A DNA stretch of 64,000 nt from Methylonatrum kenyense (GTDB taxonomy: Bacteria > Pseudomonadota > Gammaproteobacteria > Nitrococcales > Aquisalimonadaceae). The position numbers and the translations under genes are program-made. Location: NCBI RefSeq assembly GCF_023195885.1, contig NZ_JALPKO010000003.1, forward strand, positions 62,001 to 126,000. Reading direction: 5' to 3'. The notes under the pieces are model-generated. The model made no database searches and was not told where the DNA came from. It saw only the letters and a list, made by a program, of their open reading frames with translations. Positions 5,561 through 15,717 of the stretch are shown piece after piece (within the stretch, counting starts at the first letter, position 1; every line of letters starts with the position of its first letter).

Positions 5561-5734
5561 CTACTTTCCGGCGCATCCGCAGCCGCTGTGCCCGCATCCG
5601 GCGCCGTTATCGTGCCCCCGGGCGCAGCTCTCACCGCAGTACAGGCGTCCCTGGCGCTCGACGGCCTTGTCGCGGGGCATGGTGCAGACGCAGTCGCTGC
5701 AGGCACATTCAACACGTTCGGTCGCGGCATTCAT
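5561..5734 (-). CDS. bmtA: Bacterial metallothionein (SmtA/BmtA type)
   Basis: A 57-residue cysteine-rich protein that should bind zinc, cadmium or copper ions in the cytoplasm. The pattern CACSDCVC, then YCGESCARGH, then GCGHSGCGC is that of prokaryotic metallothioneins (SmtA/BmtA): about ten cysteines and two histidines with the zinc-finger-like core. The ATG at 5734 follows the ribosome site AGGAGG; the longer open frame upstream is not needed. It diverges from the aldehyde oxidoreductase operon and shares a 250-bp intergenic region. I did not find a convincing SmtB or Zur operator. Confidence 0.9.
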   Translation of the reverse strand: MNAATERVECACSDCVCTMPRDKAVERQGRLYCGESCARGHDNGAGCGHSGCGCAGK

Positions 5735-5985
5735 GGCCTTGCCTCCTGGTTGCTCAGGTGAGGCCCCGGGCCGGCACAGAGCCGGGTTCGGGTCCCGCTG
5801 TCTGCTTTTCATCGACAGCCCGGACCGGTGCCTCGCAGTTTCACCGTTGTGATTGCTTTCCCGGGTTAGTGCTTGCGAGTACTATGTTCAGTGTAGCGGC
5901 TCAGAAGAAGACGCCAGGCGCCATTGACCGAAAGGACCGTTCAGAGTCCCGGCAGGCGCAACGACTTAATGAGGGAGGAAGTTTC

Positions 5986-6522
5986 ATGCTCAAGGCGCTC
6001 AAGCTTGAGCCGGAGAAGTGTACCGGTTGTCTCCAGTGCGAGATGGCCTGTTCCTTCGAAAATACCGGCGCATTCAACCCCGCAAAGTCCCGCATCAAGG
6101 TCTTCACTTTCCACGATGAAGGGCGCTTCGCCCCCTACACGTGCACCCAATGTGACGAGGCCTGGTGCATGCACGCCTGTCCGGTCGAAGCGATCGTGCT
6201 CAACATGGCGACCGGCTCCAAGGACGTGCTTTCCGACGTCTGTGTCGGCTGCAAGGTCTGCACGATTGCCTGCCCGTTCGGCACGGTGAATTACGAGGCC
6301 GACAGCGGCAAGGTCGTGAAATGCGATCTTTGCGGTGGTGACCCGTGGTGCGCCAAGGCGTGCCCCACCGGCGCCATTACCTATGTGGCTGCCGATGACA
6401 CCGGCATGGAACGGATGCGTGCCTGGGCGCAGCAGGCGCCGCGCGAGGCCGGTGCCCATGCGAACCCGCCGAAAGCGAAGGAAGTGCAGGTGTTCAACGT
6501 TCCCCAGCAGGGAGGACTCTGA
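5986..6522 (+). CDS. aorA: Polyferredoxin subunit of aldehyde oxidoreductase (AorA-like)
   Basis: A 178-residue electron-transfer protein with four [4Fe-4S] cluster motifs: CTGCLQCEMAC near the N-terminus, CTQCDEAWCMHACP, CVGCKVCTIACP, and CDLCGGDPWCAKACP. This is the four-cluster (HycB/DmsB-like) layout. ATG 5986 follows a GGGAGGAAG ribosome site. It lies 2 bp upstream of the tungsten aldehyde oxidoreductase gene, and an FAD-dependent reductase follows, the same order as the AorABC enzyme of Aromatoleum, in which this subunit wires the tungsten site to the flavin. The role is inferred from that context; its ferredoxin nature is certain. Confidence 0.9.
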   Translation: MLKALKLEPEKCTGCLQCEMACSFENTGAFNPAKSRIKVFTFHDEGRFAPYTCTQCDEAWCMHACPVEAIVLNMATGSKDVLSDVCVGCKVCTIACPFGTVNYEADSGKVVKCDLCGGDPWCAKACPTGAITYVAADDTGMERMRAWAQQAPREAGAHANPPKAKEVQVFNVPQQGGL

Positions 6523-6524
6523 TC

Positions 6525-8375
6525 ATGTCCTGGACTGGAAAAGTACTTCGCGTGAATTTGACCGAGGGGACCTGCAAGGCCGAGCCCCTGAACATGGAGT
6601 GGGCCCAGCAGTATCTTGGGCAGCGCGGTCTGGCGACCAAGTATCTGGTGGAAGAGACCGACCCGAAGGTCGATCCCCTGTCGCCGGAAAACAAGATGAT
6701 CATGACCACCGGGCCGCTGACTGGTACGATGGCCTCCACCGGTGGTCGCTACTCCGTGGTCACCAAGAGCCCGCTGACCAACTGCATTGCCTGTTCCAAC
6801 TCCGGTGGTTTCATCGGTGCCGAGATCAAGACGGCCGGCTGGGACATGATAATCTACGAGGGCAAGTCGCCAAAGCCGGTGTACCTGTATCTGGAGGATG
6901 ACACCGCCGAACTCCGTCCGGCGGATCACCTGTGGGGCAAGTCGGTCTGGGACACCCACGAAATCCTGCACAAGGAGAATCAGGATCCCGAACTGAAGAT
7001 TGCCTGTGTCGGCCGTGCGGCCGAGAAGGGCAACCTGTATGCGGCCATCGTCAACGATATGCACCGTGCCGCCGGTCGCTCCGGCGTCGGCACCGTGATG
7101 GCATCGAAGAACCTCAAGGCGCTGGCCTGCCGCGGTACCCGCGGCGTGGGCAACTTCAAGGATCCGATGCGCTTCATGCAGGCCACCGAGGAGGCCAAGA
7201 AGGTGCTGGCGGATCACGCCGTCACCGGCCAGGGCCTGCCCACCTACGGTACCCAGGTGTTGATGAACGTGATCAACGAAATGGGGGCGATGCCAACGCG
7301 CAACATGCGTGAGGTGCAGTTCGAGGGGGCGCACAAGATCTCCGGCGAGGCGATGCACGAGCCGCGTGCATCCGACCACCAGCCCAATCTCAGCACCAAC
7401 GGCGCCTGCTTCGGCTGCACCATTGCCTGCGGCCGGATCTCCACCATCGATCCGCAGCATTTCACGGTCAAGGATCGGCCGGAATACCAGAAGGCCTCGG
7501 GTGGCCTGGAATACGAAGCCGCCTGGGCGCTGGGGTCCAATACCGGTGTCGATGACATGGATGCCCTGACCTATGCCAACTTCCTCTGCAACGAGGACGG
7601 CATGGACCCGATCTCCTTCGGCGCCACGGTCTCTGCGGCCATGGAGCTGTATGAGATGGGGGTCATTACCACCGAGCATACCGGCGGTCTGGAAATCCCG
7701 TTCGGTTCTGCCGAAGCGCTGGTGAAGCTGGCTGAATTGACTGCCAAGGGCGAAGGCTTTGGTCAGGAAATCGGCCTGGGTTCGCGTCGGCTGGCCGAGA
7801 AGTACGGCCATCCGGACATCTCGATGACAGTCAAGAGCCAGGAGTTCCCGGCCTACGATCCGCGTGGCATCCAGGGTATGGGTCTGGCCTATGCCACCTC
7901 GAACCGGGGCGCCTGCCACCTGCGCGGCTACACGGTATCCTCCGAAGTGCTGGGAATCCCCGAGAAGACCGATCCGCTGAGCACCGATGGCAAGGCCGAA
8001 CTGGTCAAGGCCTTCCAGGATGCGACGGCCGCGGTCGATTCCGCCGGCCTCTGCGTGTTCACCACCTTTGCCTGGGGCATGGACGACATCGCACCGCAGA
8101 TCGATGCCGCCTGCGAGGGTGACTGGACCACGGAAAAGCTGCTGGAAGTCGGTGAACGCATCTGGAACATGGAGCGCGACTACAACCTCAAGGCCGGCAT
8201 GACCGCCGCCGACGACACGCTGCCCAAGCGTCTGCGCAAGGATGCGGCCAAGGTCGGTCCGGCGGAAGGTCGGGTCAACGACCTGGACGTAATGCTGCCC
8301 AAGTATTACGAAGTCCGGGGCTGGACGCCGACCGGTGAGCTGACGCCTGAAACCCGCGCGCGGCTGGGGCTCTGA
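6525..8375 (+). CDS. aorB: Aldehyde:ferredoxin oxidoreductase-type tungstoenzyme, catalytic subunit
   Basis: This 616-residue protein belongs to the AOR family, which oxidises aldehydes to acids at a tungsten bis-pyranopterin centre next to one [4Fe-4S] cluster. The N-terminal AOR domain begins SWTGKVLRVNL. The cluster ligands are the CFGCTIAC motif at about residues 295-302 and a distal cysteine near 508 (GLCVFTT). Segments MIMTTGPLTGT and ATSNRGACHLRG are family hallmarks. Length is normal. Together with the polyferredoxin before it and the FAD protein after it, it resembles the NAD-linked AorABC type rather than the simple archaeal enzyme. The substrate cannot be read from sequence. Confidence 0.95.
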   Translation: MSWTGKVLRVNLTEGTCKAEPLNMEWAQQYLGQRGLATKYLVEETDPKVDPLSPENKMIMTTGPLTGTMASTGGRYSVVTKSPLTNCIACSNSGGFIGAEIKTAGWDMIIYEGKSPKPVYLYLEDDTAELRPADHLWGKSVWDTHEILHKENQDPELKIACVGRAAEKGNLYAAIVNDMHRAAGRSGVGTVMASKNLKALACRGTRGVGNFKDPMRFMQATEEAKKVLADHAVTGQGLPTYGTQVLMNVINEMGAMPTRNMREVQFEGAHKISGEAMHEPRASDHQPNLSTNGACFGCTIACGRISTIDPQHFTVKDRPEYQKASGGLEYEAAWALGSNTGVDDMDALTYANFLCNEDGMDPISFGATVSAAMELYEMGVITTEHTGGLEIPFGSAEALVKLAELTAKGEGFGQEIGLGSRRLAEKYGHPDISMTVKSQEFPAYDPRGIQGMGLAYATSNRGACHLRGYTVSSEVLGIPEKTDPLSTDGKAELVKAFQDATAAVDSAGLCVFTTFAWGMDDIAPQIDAACEGDWTTEKLLEVGERIWNMERDYNLKAGMTAADDTLPKRLRKDAAKVGPAEGRVNDLDVMLPKYYEVRGWTPTGELTPETRARLGL

Positions 8376-8409
8376 GCCCCGCCGCCGCGGCTAGCGGAGA
8401 GGTTGAATC

Positions 8410-9687
8410 ATGCGACATGTGATCATTGGCGCAGGTCCGGCCGGCGTTGTTGCCGCCGAAACCCTGCGCAAGCTCGATCCCGACAGCAACGTCACCATGC
8501 TCAGTCACGAGCCGGAGCCGCCGTACTCACGGATGGCGATTCCATATTATCTGGTGGAGCAGGTCGGTGAGCAGGGAACCTGGCTGCGCAAGGGCGACGG
8601 CTATTTCGAAAACAACGGCATCACCGTTCGGACAGGCGTCAAGGCCGAGGGGCTGGACACCCAGGCCAAGCAGGTAAAACTGGCTGGCGGGGACACGGTT
8701 CCCTACGACAAGCTGCTGATTGCCACCGGTTCTCATCCGATTGTGCCGCCCCTGCCGGGAGTCGACCGGGAGGGCGTGCATACCTGCTGGACCCTGGAGG
8801 ACAGCCGACACATCATCGAGCGGGCAAAGGAAGGTTCGCGGGTGGTGCTGATCGGTGCCGGCTTCATTGGCTGCATCATTCTGGAATCCCTGGTCATGCG
8901 AAAGACGCGGCTCACGGTCATCGAGCAGCAGAACCGCATGGTGCCGCGGATGATGGATGATCGTGCCGGTGGCTTGATCAAGAAGTGGTGTCAGGACAAG
9001 GGCGTTACCGTGCATACCTCGACCACCGTTGAGAGCATCGACGAGGGTGGTGACGGGCATCCCCTGGCCGTGCGCATGGATAACGGCGAGTCTGCCCAGG
9101 CGGATCTGGTCATCGTCTGCGTCGGAGTGAAGGCGAATACGGCGTTTCTCGAAGGCTCCGGGGTCAAGGCTGATCAGGGAATCCTGGTCGATCGCCACTT
9201 GCAGACCTCGGTGGAGGACGTCTACGCGGCCGGCGACGTGGCCCAGGGACTGGATTTCAACACCGGGGAGTACACGGTGCAGGCCATCCAGCCGACGGCA
9301 GCGGATCACGGCCGGCTTGCAGCCAACAACATGGCCGGTTACCCGCTCAAGCACCAGGGCAGCGTCAACATGAACGTGCTCGATACCCTGGGGCTGATTT
9401 CGACGTCATTCGGCATGTGGATGGGCGTCGACGGCGGTGACTCCGCCGAGCTCTATGACGGCGACCGGTTCCGCTACATCAATCTGCAGTTCAAGGATGA
9501 CGTGCTGGTCGGTGGCAGCAGTCTGGGCATGACCGACCATGTCGGTGTCATGCGCGGCCTGATTCAGAGCAAGGTGCGGCTGGGTAAATGGAAGGAGAGG
9601 CTGAAAAACGATCCGACCCGGATCATGGAAGCTTATATCGCCTGTACCCAGGCCATCGGCCACAACGCCCGCGTCCTGTCGGCCTGA
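8410..9687 (+). CDS. aorC: FAD/NAD-dependent oxidoreductase subunit (AorC-like)
   Basis: A 425-residue pyridine nucleotide-disulfide oxidoreductase-fold protein. The first FAD dinucleotide site is IIGAGPAG at residues 5-12, a second nucleotide site VVLIGAGFIG is near 140, and the C-terminal FAD motif YAAGDVAQG is near 275. A GCGGAGAGG ribosome site lies upstream of ATG 8410. The close spacing after aorB indicates the same operon. In the AorABC enzyme of Aromatoleum the third subunit passes electrons to NAD+. A strong terminator follows, so it probably ends the primary transcript. It could instead be a separate NADH-dependent reductase, but context favours AorC. Confidence 0.88.
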   Translation: MRHVIIGAGPAGVVAAETLRKLDPDSNVTMLSHEPEPPYSRMAIPYYLVEQVGEQGTWLRKGDGYFENNGITVRTGVKAEGLDTQAKQVKLAGGDTVPYDKLLIATGSHPIVPPLPGVDREGVHTCWTLEDSRHIIERAKEGSRVVLIGAGFIGCIILESLVMRKTRLTVIEQQNRMVPRMMDDRAGGLIKKWCQDKGVTVHTSTTVESIDEGGDGHPLAVRMDNGESAQADLVIVCVGVKANTAFLEGSGVKADQGILVDRHLQTSVEDVYAAGDVAQGLDFNTGEYTVQAIQPTAADHGRLAANNMAGYPLKHQGSVNMNVLDTLGLISTSFGMWMGVDGGDSAELYDGDRFRYINLQFKDDVLVGGSSLGMTDHVGVMRGLIQSKVRLGKWKERLKNDPTRIMEAYIACTQAIGHNARVLSA

Positions 9688-9699
9688 GGCGTACTCGTG

Positions 9700-9744
9700 A
9701 ACCGGGCGGTGGCCCCGCGCGCGCGGCCGCTGCCCGGTTTTTTT
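9700..9744 (+). terminator. Rho-independent terminator after aorC
   Basis: AACCGGGC at 9700-9707 pairs with GCCCGGTT at 9732-9739, with an internal GGCC/GGCC stem, and a run of seven T ends at 9744. It separates aorABC from the MoaD-like gene. Confidence 0.85.
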
Positions 9745-9774
9745 GTCAGCAGAAAAGCTTACGGGCATATTCCG

Positions 9775-10029
9775 ATGCAGATTCGAATCAAGCTTTATGC
9801 CAGCCTGAGCAAGCTGTTACCCGAGGGCGTCAAGCCGCATGAAGGTTTCCTTTTGGACATTGATGATGCCATGACGCCAAACCAGTTGATTGACCTGCTC
9901 AAGATCCCGCGGCCGATGGCCCATCTGATTCTCTGCAATGGCACCTACATCAAGCCTGCGGATCGGGATAGCGCCGTATTCGAGCCGGACGATGTGTTTG
10001 CCGTCTGGCCGCCGGTAGCCGGCGGCTGA
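9775..10029 (+). CDS. aorD: MoaD/ThiS-family sulfur carrier protein (AorD-like)
   Basis: An 84-residue ubiquitin-fold protein ending in Gly-Gly, the thiocarboxylate-forming tail of MoaD and ThiS proteins. Starting at ATG 9775 gives the usual length; the upstream open frame runs through the aorC terminator and is unlikely to be coding. MoaD-like proteins donate sulfur for the dithiolene of molybdopterin, and a dedicated copy beside a tungsten AOR is known from other AOR operons. Its stop overlaps the next start (TGATG). A role in making or loading the tungsten cofactor is inference from position. Confidence 0.85.
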   Translation: MQIRIKLYASLSKLLPEGVKPHEGFLLDIDDAMTPNQLIDLLKIPRPMAHLILCNGTYIKPADRDSAVFEPDDVFAVWPPVAGG

Positions 10030-10334
10030 TGGCGGTGACTGCCGAGCGGCATCGAATCAGCAAGACCATGGGCTTGGATCACGCGGATTTCTGGCGCGTG
10101 GCGCCGGCAGTGATGGAAGGTTTCGACTGGCGTCGACTGGGTGCTGACCGCCTGGTTGGGGAGCAGGGGAAAGGTCGGATCGAGATCCACCTGGCGCCGG
10201 AAACACGGCGCCGGATCGCCATGTTCGAGCTGCCGACGACCGAACTGACCATCGAATTTTTCAACCTGGATGCGACCGAGCGTCGCGCCTTTTTGGAGAA
10301 TTTCGATCGCCGGTTCCGCCGCGGTGGCGGCTAG
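10029..10334 (+). CDS. Uncharacterised protein coupled to the MoaD-like gene
   Basis: A 101-residue protein I do not recognise. It has no signal peptide or membrane segment. The N-terminal half has several aromatic residues (FWRVAP, FDWRRLG); the C-terminal half contains RRIAMFELPTTELTIEFFNLD and a basic helix. Its ATG overlaps the stop of the MoaD-like gene, so translation is coupled and a role in AOR cofactor handling or enzyme maturation is plausible. Its stop TAG lies inside a CTAG that abuts a remnant of the dispersed repeat. Confidence 0.75.
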   Translation: MAVTAERHRISKTMGLDHADFWRVAPAVMEGFDWRRLGADRLVGEQGKGRIEIHLAPETRRRIAMFELPTTELTIEFFNLDATERRAFLENFDRRFRRGGG

Positions 10335-14698: not shown

Positions 14699-15079
14699 TC
14701 AAAACCATCGGCGTTCCTGCCCGGCCCAGGCACCCGCAATGGCGGCTGTCAGGCTCAGGGCGATGTAGGACAGCGCTGCGAGCAGGCGGCCATCCTCGAG
14801 CATGACAATGGTTTCCAGGCTGAAAATCGAGAAAGTGGTCAGGCCGCCACAGAACCCGGTGAGCACAAATGGGGCCAGCAGGGCCTTCTTGCCCGAGGCC
14901 GATTGCGATAAGCGACCGGCCAGATGCCCCATGAGGAAGGATCCCACCAGGTTCGCAACCAGGGTTGGCCACGGAAAGGCCGTGGACTGAAGCAGCGGCC
15001 AGGAGGAGAGCGCGAGCCGAAGACCGCCACCGAGGATGCTGCCGATCGCGACCGCGAGCATTTCCTGTGCCGTCTTCAT
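14699..15079 (-). CDS. crcB: Fluoride channel CrcB/Fluc, second copy
   Basis: A 126-residue membrane protein with four hydrophobic segments. The motifs GGGLRLAL, NLVGSFLMG and TGFCGGLTTFSIFSLE match the Fluc/CrcB fluoride channel, which exports fluoride ion as a dual-topology dimer. ATG 15079 overlaps the stop of the preceding crcB paralogue by ATGA. Two adjacent genes suggest a heterodimeric channel. The dispersed repeat abuts its 3' end. I saw no convincing fluoride riboswitch upstream. Confidence 0.92.
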   Translation of the reverse strand: MKTAQEMLAVAIGSILGGGLRLALSSWPLLQSTAFPWPTLVANLVGSFLMGHLAGRLSQSASGKKALLAPFVLTGFCGGLTTFSIFSLETIVMLEDGRLLAALSYIALSLTAAIAGAWAGQERRWF

Positions 15080-15447
15080 GGCAGAGCCTGGCCCAGATTC
15101 ATGCCCAGCACCACGGCCAACAGGGAGCCGAACAGGGACAGGCCCACATTCAGGGCGGCTGACTGTGGGGCGCCCAGTCGTGCCAGCCGCACTGTTTCCA
15201 GCGCGAACGTAGACACAGTCGTGTAACAGCCACAAAAGCCGATCAGCAGGAGCAGCCGTGCGGCGTCACCCGCGACGCCGGTGTAGAACAGCCCGGCGAG
15301 GAATGCCCCGCTCAGGTTGACAATCAGGGTCGGCAGGGGAAACGTGGCTTGACCCCGTTGCGCAACCAGTCGGGTCACCAGGAAGCGCGCGCTGCCGCCG
15401 ACAGCGCAGGCGACGGCGAATCCAGCCAGGTTGCCGATCGTGATCAA
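15076..15447 (-). CDS. crcB: Fluoride channel CrcB/Fluc, first copy
   Basis: A 123-residue Fluc-family protein with four membrane segments and motifs GGSARFLVTR, NLSGAFLAGL and GFCGCYTTVSTFALE. I prefer the TTG at 15447, which gives the usual family length and has an AAGG ribosome site; an upstream TTG at 15504 would add an unlikely proline-rich lead. It forms a tandem pair with the next crcB, overlapping by four bases. Such pairs commonly assemble as a two-gene fluoride exporter in the inner membrane. Confidence 0.9.
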   Translation of the reverse strand: MITIGNLAGFAVACAVGGSARFLVTRLVAQRGQATFPLPTLIVNLSGAFLAGLFYTGVAGDAARLLLLIGFCGCYTTVSTFALETVRLARLGAPQSAALNVGLSLFGSLLAVVLGMNLGQALP

Positions 15448-15717
15448 AGTACCTTGTCCATCAGGTTTTCTGCTGGTCGCCGGCGCGGGCGAAACGTTGG
15501 GCAAACAAGCATTTCATGCCGACGCATCATGGCAGGCCCGTCTCCCTGAAGCTACAGCTTGAAATTCACTCAGGCGGCGGTGATAGTCATGCGGGAATGC
15601 GCTGAGTCAGCGCAGCAGCTGCGGACTTTGTGTGCAAACTCGAATTCCGGGCGTCCGTGCGTCATGCTCAGTGCCATATCTGAAAACCACACAACAACTG
15701 CCAAGGAGAAGCTGCAA

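Follow-up and report, generated by a model that had tools for sequence, protein, structure and literature searches.

The aorABCDE locus of Methylonatrum kenyense

The window analysed here is a stretch of 64,000 nucleotides from Methylonatrum kenyense (assembly GCF_023195885.1, contig NZ_JALPKO010000003.1, positions 62,001 to 126,000). Between positions 5986 and 10334 it carries five genes on the forward strand, which encode a predicted NAD-linked tungsten aldehyde oxidoreductase (AOR) and two small proteins, the second of which, AorE, is the main subject of this work. The first gene, aorA (5986..6522), encodes a polyferredoxin subunit of 178 amino acids which matches Pfam Fer4 families and has 16 cysteines in four groups, counted on the translation. 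It is followed by aorB (6525..8375), for the tungsten-cofactor subunit of 616 amino acids with the Pfam domains AFOR_N and AFOR_C and a full-length match to 8c0z_A, the AOR structure of Aromatoleum (E 7.6e-302), and by aorC (8410..9687), for the FAD/NAD reductase subunit of 425 amino acids with the Pfam domain Pyr_redox_2. The top NCBIfam model for aorC was phenylglyoxylate dehydrogenase PadH at 305 bits, which does not reach the cut-off of 475. The last two genes are aorD (9775..10029), encoding a candidate MoaD/ThiS-like sulfur carrier of 84 amino acids with a C-terminal Gly-Gly, and aorE (10029..10334), encoding a protein of 101 amino acids, probably of the DUF1952 kind, with the C-terminus Arg-Gly-Gly-Gly. 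The stop of aorD and the start of aorE share one base, TGATG. A first-pass annotation made from the letters of the DNA had described these five genes, and the open reading frames, the Pfam domains and the TGATG overlap were all confirmed.

The same annotation had compared the first three genes with AorABC of Aromatoleum, and this assignment was right. AorB keeps Glu331, Tyr443 and His464, with positions counted on the 8c0z alignment and residues numbered as in passages of PMC10413684. With both AFOR domains and the catalytic Glu, Tyr and His, and with a four-cluster polyferredoxin and FAD/NAD subunits encoded beside it, AorB has the features of the AorABC type (Class III) as far as sequence can tell, and the locus is predicted to encode an NAD-linked tungsten aldehyde oxidoreductase of this known kind. 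The Aromatoleum enzyme is described in passages of PMC9295118 and PMC10413684 as binding tungsten, reducing NAD+, using H2 and forming filaments. A second AorB-like gene, 54-63% identical to that of the window, was seen in the class genomes G113, G143, G145, G242, G265, G309, G316, G396 and G412 (G and L are our handles for genomes and loci).

The window AorD gives a marginal match to Pfam ThiS (22.3 bits, just below the cut-off of 22.5). The profile of the AorD family matches solved MoaD proteins (best E 1.1e-4), and Gly-Gly is the end of 119 of the 126 distinct MoaD-matching frames that have a stop. Homology and the C-terminal Gly-Gly together place AorD in the ThiS/MoaD family. For AorE, single-sequence searches of Pfam and NCBIfam gave no significant family. 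The aorD-aorE pair recurs across many genera, so that the pairing of these two genes is not a matter of chance.

A terminator-like hairpin lies between aorC and aorD on the forward strand (9699-9740, with a 16-pair outer stem and a T run to 9744). The 65-base stretch of the hairpin has a minimum free energy of -38.8 kcal/mol and a z of -3.75. Gaps between aorC and moaD were compared in 61 sequences (the window and 60 loci), and the 19 gaps of at least 30 bases were scanned for a stem of at least 8 pairs followed by at least four T within eight bases. Four gaps contained such a hairpin: the window, L044 and L045, where it is alike but of different letters, and L055, where it is shorter. In a dozen other loci aorC and moaD overlap by four bases. 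Given the hairpin, the five genes may not form one simple transcript, and in the window's lineage aorDE may be less strongly expressed than aorABC; the hairpin may determine how much maturation factor is made relative to the enzyme. The operon proposed in the first-pass annotation stands as a gene order, but its description as a single unit has to be qualified, since in this lineage the terminator-like hairpin stands between aorABC and aorDE. A promoter-like site at 9743-9771 was within chance.

Identity of the 101-residue protein

An aorABCDE set of the same five genes in the same order has been reported for Aromatoleum aromaticum EbN1 in a 2019 paper, passages of which describe AorD and AorE as putative maturation factors, liken both to MoaD and state that both are absent from the purified AOR (PMC6365974). 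The window protein was connected with this AorE through the family of Methyloversatilis. In that family, which we take to be the Rhodocyclaceae, an AorB-like gene was found in 67 of 150 genomes. One of them, G561, encodes an AorB which shares 98.5% identity with 8c0z across a compared stretch of 204 residues. In its locus (L149) aorC is followed by a MoaD gene whose product ends in AGG and then by a homolog of AorE which ends in QRGGG and matches the AorE profile, a hidden Markov model (HMM) built from the window AorE together with 65 relatives, with an E of 2.7e-13. Among the 18 loci fetched from this family a downstream AorE match was present in 14, that of L157 being weak, and was not found in L158, L161, L162 and L163. 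Homology and the same position after aorD identify the 101-residue protein as a probable AorE, by way of a very close relative and not of a genome proven to be EbN1.

The first-pass annotation had called it a protein of unknown function. This holds in that no Pfam or NCBIfam family covers it, but as AorE it is not unknown to the field, where passages already in print regard it as a putative maturation factor (PMC6365974). Compared with the Aromatoleum set, the window AorE is divergent in sequence and the window aorC is separated from aorD by the hairpin; in G561 tup-like genes are found some 1.4 kb behind aorE, whereas none was seen adjoining the window aorE. WorX of other WOR operons is, in passages of PMC13328260, a ThiS-like protein encoded beside WOR genes with a predicted role in pterin synthesis. 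By this description it corresponds to AorD and not to AorE, and those passages name no AorE-like gene. The link of AOR operons with MoaD was noted in 2006, according to passages of PMC1779556. A literature search found no paper on DUF1952 and, among the matches listed, none about the function of AorE.

Distribution and gene neighbourhoods of aorE

AorE was found in 14 of the 59 nearest-relative genomes, including 13 of the 14 of the window's own family. In 369 genomes of the class it was present in 40 by profile (E 0.01 or better) and in 29 by single-sequence search, AorB was present in 48 (E 1e-50 or better), and 36 had both (Fisher p 4.6e-35, uncorrected for kinship). Among 299 genomes drawn from the phylum seven had AorE, two of these being counted already. 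The plasmid search gave no AorE homolog. Four genomes had AorE only: G137 and G260, which belong to one genus and carry broken copies, G335, in which the match is short and weak, and G363, a genome 78% complete, in which the frames of one 3.2-kb contig read as moeB, MoaD, AorE and moaA. For nine of the 12 genomes with AorB only, the contig ends at or soon after aorC or moaD; this is less clear for G324, G351 and G368. No support was drawn from the matches in G335, G183 (C65) and G061 (C160), each being short, broken or in an odd place.

Gene neighbours were counted over 65 named loci, many of which are truncated. The first-pass annotation had proposed a check of co-occurrence with MoaD-like genes, and MoaD was found within 1.2 kb of AorE in 60 of the 65, with AorC within 3 kb in 61 and AorB within 5.5 kb in 56. 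Homologs are not mostly outside AOR loci, which it had named as the observation that would count against its proposal: AorE has an AOR subunit gene, a MoaD gene or both nearby in 62 of the 65 (neither in L060, L061 and L102), and 36 of the 40 AorE-positive class genomes have AorB. In the small loci from the scans of relatives and class, AorB, AorC or MoaD was within 1.5 kb in 40 of 43, the others being L033, L038 and L043.

Genes for the pterin cofactor are also frequent. Downstream moaA was found within 2.5 kb of aorE in 30 of the 65 loci, a tupB-like gene within 8 kb in 10, moeB within 6.5 kb in nine, mogA/moaB within 4 kb in eight, moeA within 8 kb in eight and moaE within 6 kb in seven; some pterin or tup-like marker was present in 40. 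The query genes for MoaA, MoeB, MoaB and MoeA score above the NCBIfam cut-offs and that for MoaE above the Pfam cut-off, while the transporter query genes are TupB- or TupC/WtpC-like and score below the NCBIfam cut-offs. In L047 and L056, moeB, aorABC, moaD, aorE, moaA, mogA, tupCB, moaE and moeA are clustered on both strands. Genes resembling tupB and tupC follow aorE in nine of the 18 Methyloversatilis-family loci (L149-L151, L155, L157, L159, L160, L165 and L166) and in L075; the ATPase after aorE in L150 was not named TupC by the models, and its permease is TupB-like, below cut-off. In L033 a gene for a TupC/WtpC-like ATPase precedes that for AorE.

The genome of the window has a single AorE and a tupBCA-like set on another contig. 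Its TupB match is below the model cut-off, and the TupB model also matches 12 of 14 control genomes, so that this match alone is no proof. The TupA match scores 186.6 bits against a cut-off of 400, and the adjoining ATPase has no specific name. Because the TupA match adjoins the TupB-like gene, the set is likely to be tupBCA.

Other arrangements of these genes were seen in L229 (G396), with two tandem aorE matches behind one MoaD, in L240 (G316), with two tandem MoaD genes, and in L254 (G825), where the order is unusual, with aorA on the - strand and aorE upstream of it on the + strand.

Separated and broken copies of aorE are also found. In L060 aorE lies by moeB and moaA and in L061 by moaA, neither being beside AOR genes; the genomes of both loci have aorABC with moaD elsewhere and no aorE match there. 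In G113 moaD and aorE form a pair away from aorABC, and in G300 the pair and aorABC are separated by 7 kb. In G137 and G260, which are 99 and 96% complete and gave no AorB match, the broken aorE lies between moeB and moaA, both of which are still matched. This fits aorE being needed for AOR and not for the molybdenum cofactor in general.

Fold of AorE and its relation to DUF1952

When AorE and the neighbouring MoaD family were compared as profiles, the probability was 0.3%. Two AlphaFold2 models of AorE (mean pLDDT 79.6 and 84.9) predict a strand-helix, four or five strands and a long helix, followed by a low-confidence tail. The predicted order of strands and helices differs from that listed for MoaD-type domains. 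AorE does not show beta-grasp homology to MoaD and is not MoaD-like, contrary to passages of the 2019 paper (PMC6365974). The top VIA-align rows were 4yom_A, a SAD kinase fragment (Z 11.1, root-mean-square deviation (rmsd) 3.5, 90 aligned, and Z 10.8, rmsd 3.3, 89 aligned), and 5wi2_A, the KA1 domain of Chk1 (Z 10.0, rmsd 2.4, 83 aligned), followed closely by Bet v 1-type and other chains at a Z of 8-9. There was no match at E 0.001 or better for the models in Foldseek, nor in the viral fold library. The MoaD-related protein 1v8c of Thermus thermophilus was at rank 32 in Foldseek for the second model (E 0.063, TM 0.61); it was not in the best 50 Foldseek rows of the first model nor in the best 50 VIA-align rows of either.

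In its PDB sequence 1v8c has a MoaD domain with VAGG at its end and behind it a Pfam DUF1952 (PF09189) domain which closes with RGGG. The AorE profile aligns to this C-terminal domain with an E of 0.0012 and a low probability, 19%. The domain scores 24.5, a value reached by none of 300 shuffles with the same GGG tail (maximum 22.1). Without the GGG tail the score is 20.3 against a shuffle maximum of 20.0, a thin margin. In the reverse direction the DUF1952 model was run on 339 genomes, and its two best places were the aorE genes of G115 (25 bits, cut-off 22) and G114 (20.8 bits). With a limit of E 1 it matched 110 genomes, for the most part at places other than aorE, which was taken as chance, and it also matched four of 14 control genomes, including Thermus composti; the window AorE was not reached by it. 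From the HMM matches, the alignment and the fold rank, AorE probably belongs with DUF1952, the second domain of 1v8c, which is a new assignment.

Like AorE behind AorD, the second domain of 1v8c follows a MoaD domain and ends in Arg-Gly-Gly-Gly. In Thermus the two domains form one chain, hence the MoaD diglycine is internal, whereas AorD and AorE of the window are separate proteins. An in-frame fusion of MoaD and AorE across the MoaD Gly-Gly was found in L100, the sole one among 204 MoaD-matching frames (duplicates included), and it is possibly a sequencing error in a draft genome. MoaX, the MoaD-MoaE fusion of Mycobacterium tuberculosis, has to be cleaved behind the Gly-Gly in order to be active (abstract of PMC4326299), and a Deinococcus JAMM protein cleaves MoaD-MoaE according to an abstract. 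MoaX resembles the MoaD-AorE fusions in joining MoaD to a partner at Gly-Gly, but this partner is MoaE and not AorE.

Other searches gave nothing usable. Pfam run against the 66 AorE members gave scattered weak matches, of which Bse634I (E 0.048) was taken as chance, and the PDB sequence search with AorE alignments gave chance-level matches only. With 1v8c as query on plasmids the MoaD half alone matched, and the match on a Thermus plasmid lies in a gene annotated as protoglobin.

The C-terminal tail

The end GGG was found in 117 of 122 distinct AorE homolog frames with a stop, comprising all 54 from the pattern scan and 63 of the 68 other homolog frames. The pattern used for the scan contained GGG, though not the stop, and fixed columns 92-101. 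The five frames without GGG include the broken copy of G260 and the doubtful ones of G335 and G061, and the 63 with it include the broken copy of G137. All four glycine codons are used at each of the three tail positions, which indicates that the constraint on the tail acts on the protein. In the 66 AorE rows, outside columns 92-101, there is no invariant Cys, His, Asp, Glu, Lys or Arg. The residues best kept are Arg23 (58 of 66) and Arg61 (56 of 66), and Arg62 is kept in 41.

Possible role of AorE in maturation

How a pterin cofactor comes to be made with tungsten instead of molybdenum, and how it is loaded into AOR, is to our knowledge poorly known. AorE was expressed together with AorD in a 2022 study, passages of which give a specific activity of 4.5 U/mg for aorABC, 16 U/mg for aorABCDE and 85 U/mg for aorABCDE when tungstate was supplied; the tungsten contents were 1.06, 0.39 and 1.52 respectively (PMC9295118). 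The phosphorus content rose from 5.22 to 8.93 with aorDE in the same passages. By our own arithmetic on that table the activity per tungsten was about tenfold higher with aorDE, 41 against 4.2; the table has one value for each entry, and aorD and aorE were added jointly. Thus the aorABCDE set and the increased activity of the purified enzyme with aorDE are already known, and what is new is the proposed assignment of AorE to DUF1952.

We consider, with a probability of about 0.7, that AorE is a dedicated partner of the AOR-specific MoaD at the stage where the tungsten cofactor is built or loaded. The first-pass annotation had guessed at a maturation or cofactor factor, and this is the best-supported reading, given that the homologs adjoin AOR or MoaD genes and co-occur with AorB. 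Tungstate would enter the cell via TupABC, and AorD, a MoaD-like sulfur carrier, would be activated by MoeB. AorE would be a small folded partner, not MoaD-like and with no invariant catalytic-type residue, and AorD and AorE would donate sulfur to the bis-pyranopterin tungsten cofactor of AorB or assist in its loading. The near-invariant Gly-Gly-Gly tail may be the working end of AorE, reaching into a tunnel of a partner which could be MoeB, MoaE, MoeA or AorB. Behind this scheme stand the gene content and neighbours, the co-occurrence with AorB, the broken copies in an AorB-less genus, the kept tail and the MoaD-AorE fusions, together with the published improvement of the enzyme by aorDE; we infer the working role of the tail, the maturation step and the partner of AorE.

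Several observations weigh against this proposal. In the 2022 table the tungsten content fell while the activity rose when no extra tungstate was given, there is no row for aorABC with tungstate, and the effects of aorD and aorE are not separated in the passages concerned (PMC9295118). Five of the 68 homolog frames from outside the pattern scan lack the GGG end, and for the 65 named loci the scan pattern, with its GGG, biases the tail columns. No AorE match was found in G305, G336 and G383, which have AorB and room on the contig, and the genome of L102 (G423) has an odd AorE-like frame with no AorB match found. Since G137 and G260 belong to one genus, their two broken copies of aorE are likely to represent a single loss.

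The lack of AorE in the purified enzyme (passages of PMC6365974) is what would be expected of a chaperone, and AorE could be an AorB-specific insertion chaperone which acts after cofactor synthesis without any sulfur chemistry, its link with MoaD being only co-regulation. The broken aorE in two AorB-less genomes of one genus, with moeB and moaA still matched, agrees with this. However, AorE is fused to MoaD and not to AorB, and the MoaD-AorE pair is found apart from aorABC in G113 and 7 kb off in G300; we regard such a chaperone as possible but rather unlikely. Also rather unlikely is a role as second carrier, in which AorE, without a ubiquitin fold, would be activated by MoeB at its GGG as an adenylate and then a thiocarboxylate, and act beside the tail of AorD. 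Of the features of such a protein, the GGG tail and some moeB neighbourhoods were observed. If this were true, the tungsten cofactor of AOR would be made by two different sulfur carriers, and the fusion in Thermus would be a polyprotein of two carriers, to be cut behind the first Gly-Gly.

AorE might instead carry tungstate from the TupABC importer to MoeA, with the tail or the conserved Arg-Arg stretch holding the oxyanion. The tupB-tupC-like genes after aorE in half of the Methyloversatilis-family loci and in L075, the TupC/WtpC-like gene before it in L033 and the conservation of Arg61 and Arg62 would suit such a protein. This is nevertheless doubtful, given that no Cys, His, Asp or Glu is invariant outside the scan-pattern columns, that aorDE alone did not raise the tungsten content in the passages of PMC9295118, and that the tightest partner of AorE is MoaD, to which it is fused in 1v8c and L100. 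Gene order could also be read as making AorE an accessory subunit or an electron-transfer partner of the AOR complex, which we consider highly improbable: Pfam and NCBIfam found no cofactor domain in AorE, AorD and AorE are not in the purified enzyme (passages of PMC6365974), and aorE also occurs in moa or tup-like clusters without AOR genes.

These results would tie AorE to DUF1952, an uncharacterised family with a solved structure, and link that family to tungsten-uptake and pterin-synthesis genes. They also correct the published MoaD-like description of AorE and draw attention to the three-residue tail. As AOR can reduce acids and NAD+ with hydrogen (passages of PMC9295118), better maturation would be of practical value.

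Neighbouring genes

Divergent from aorA and upstream of it is a gene for a prokaryotic metallothionein (5564-5812, reverse strand; Pfam Metallothio_Pro, 60.5 bits). A homolog lies upstream of aorA also in L044 and L045 and, apart from the window's own copies, in no other locus examined. Further along the window, two adjacent short open reading frames at 14699-15504 on the reverse strand have translations reminiscent of a gene pair for fluoride channels of the CrcB/Fluc type.

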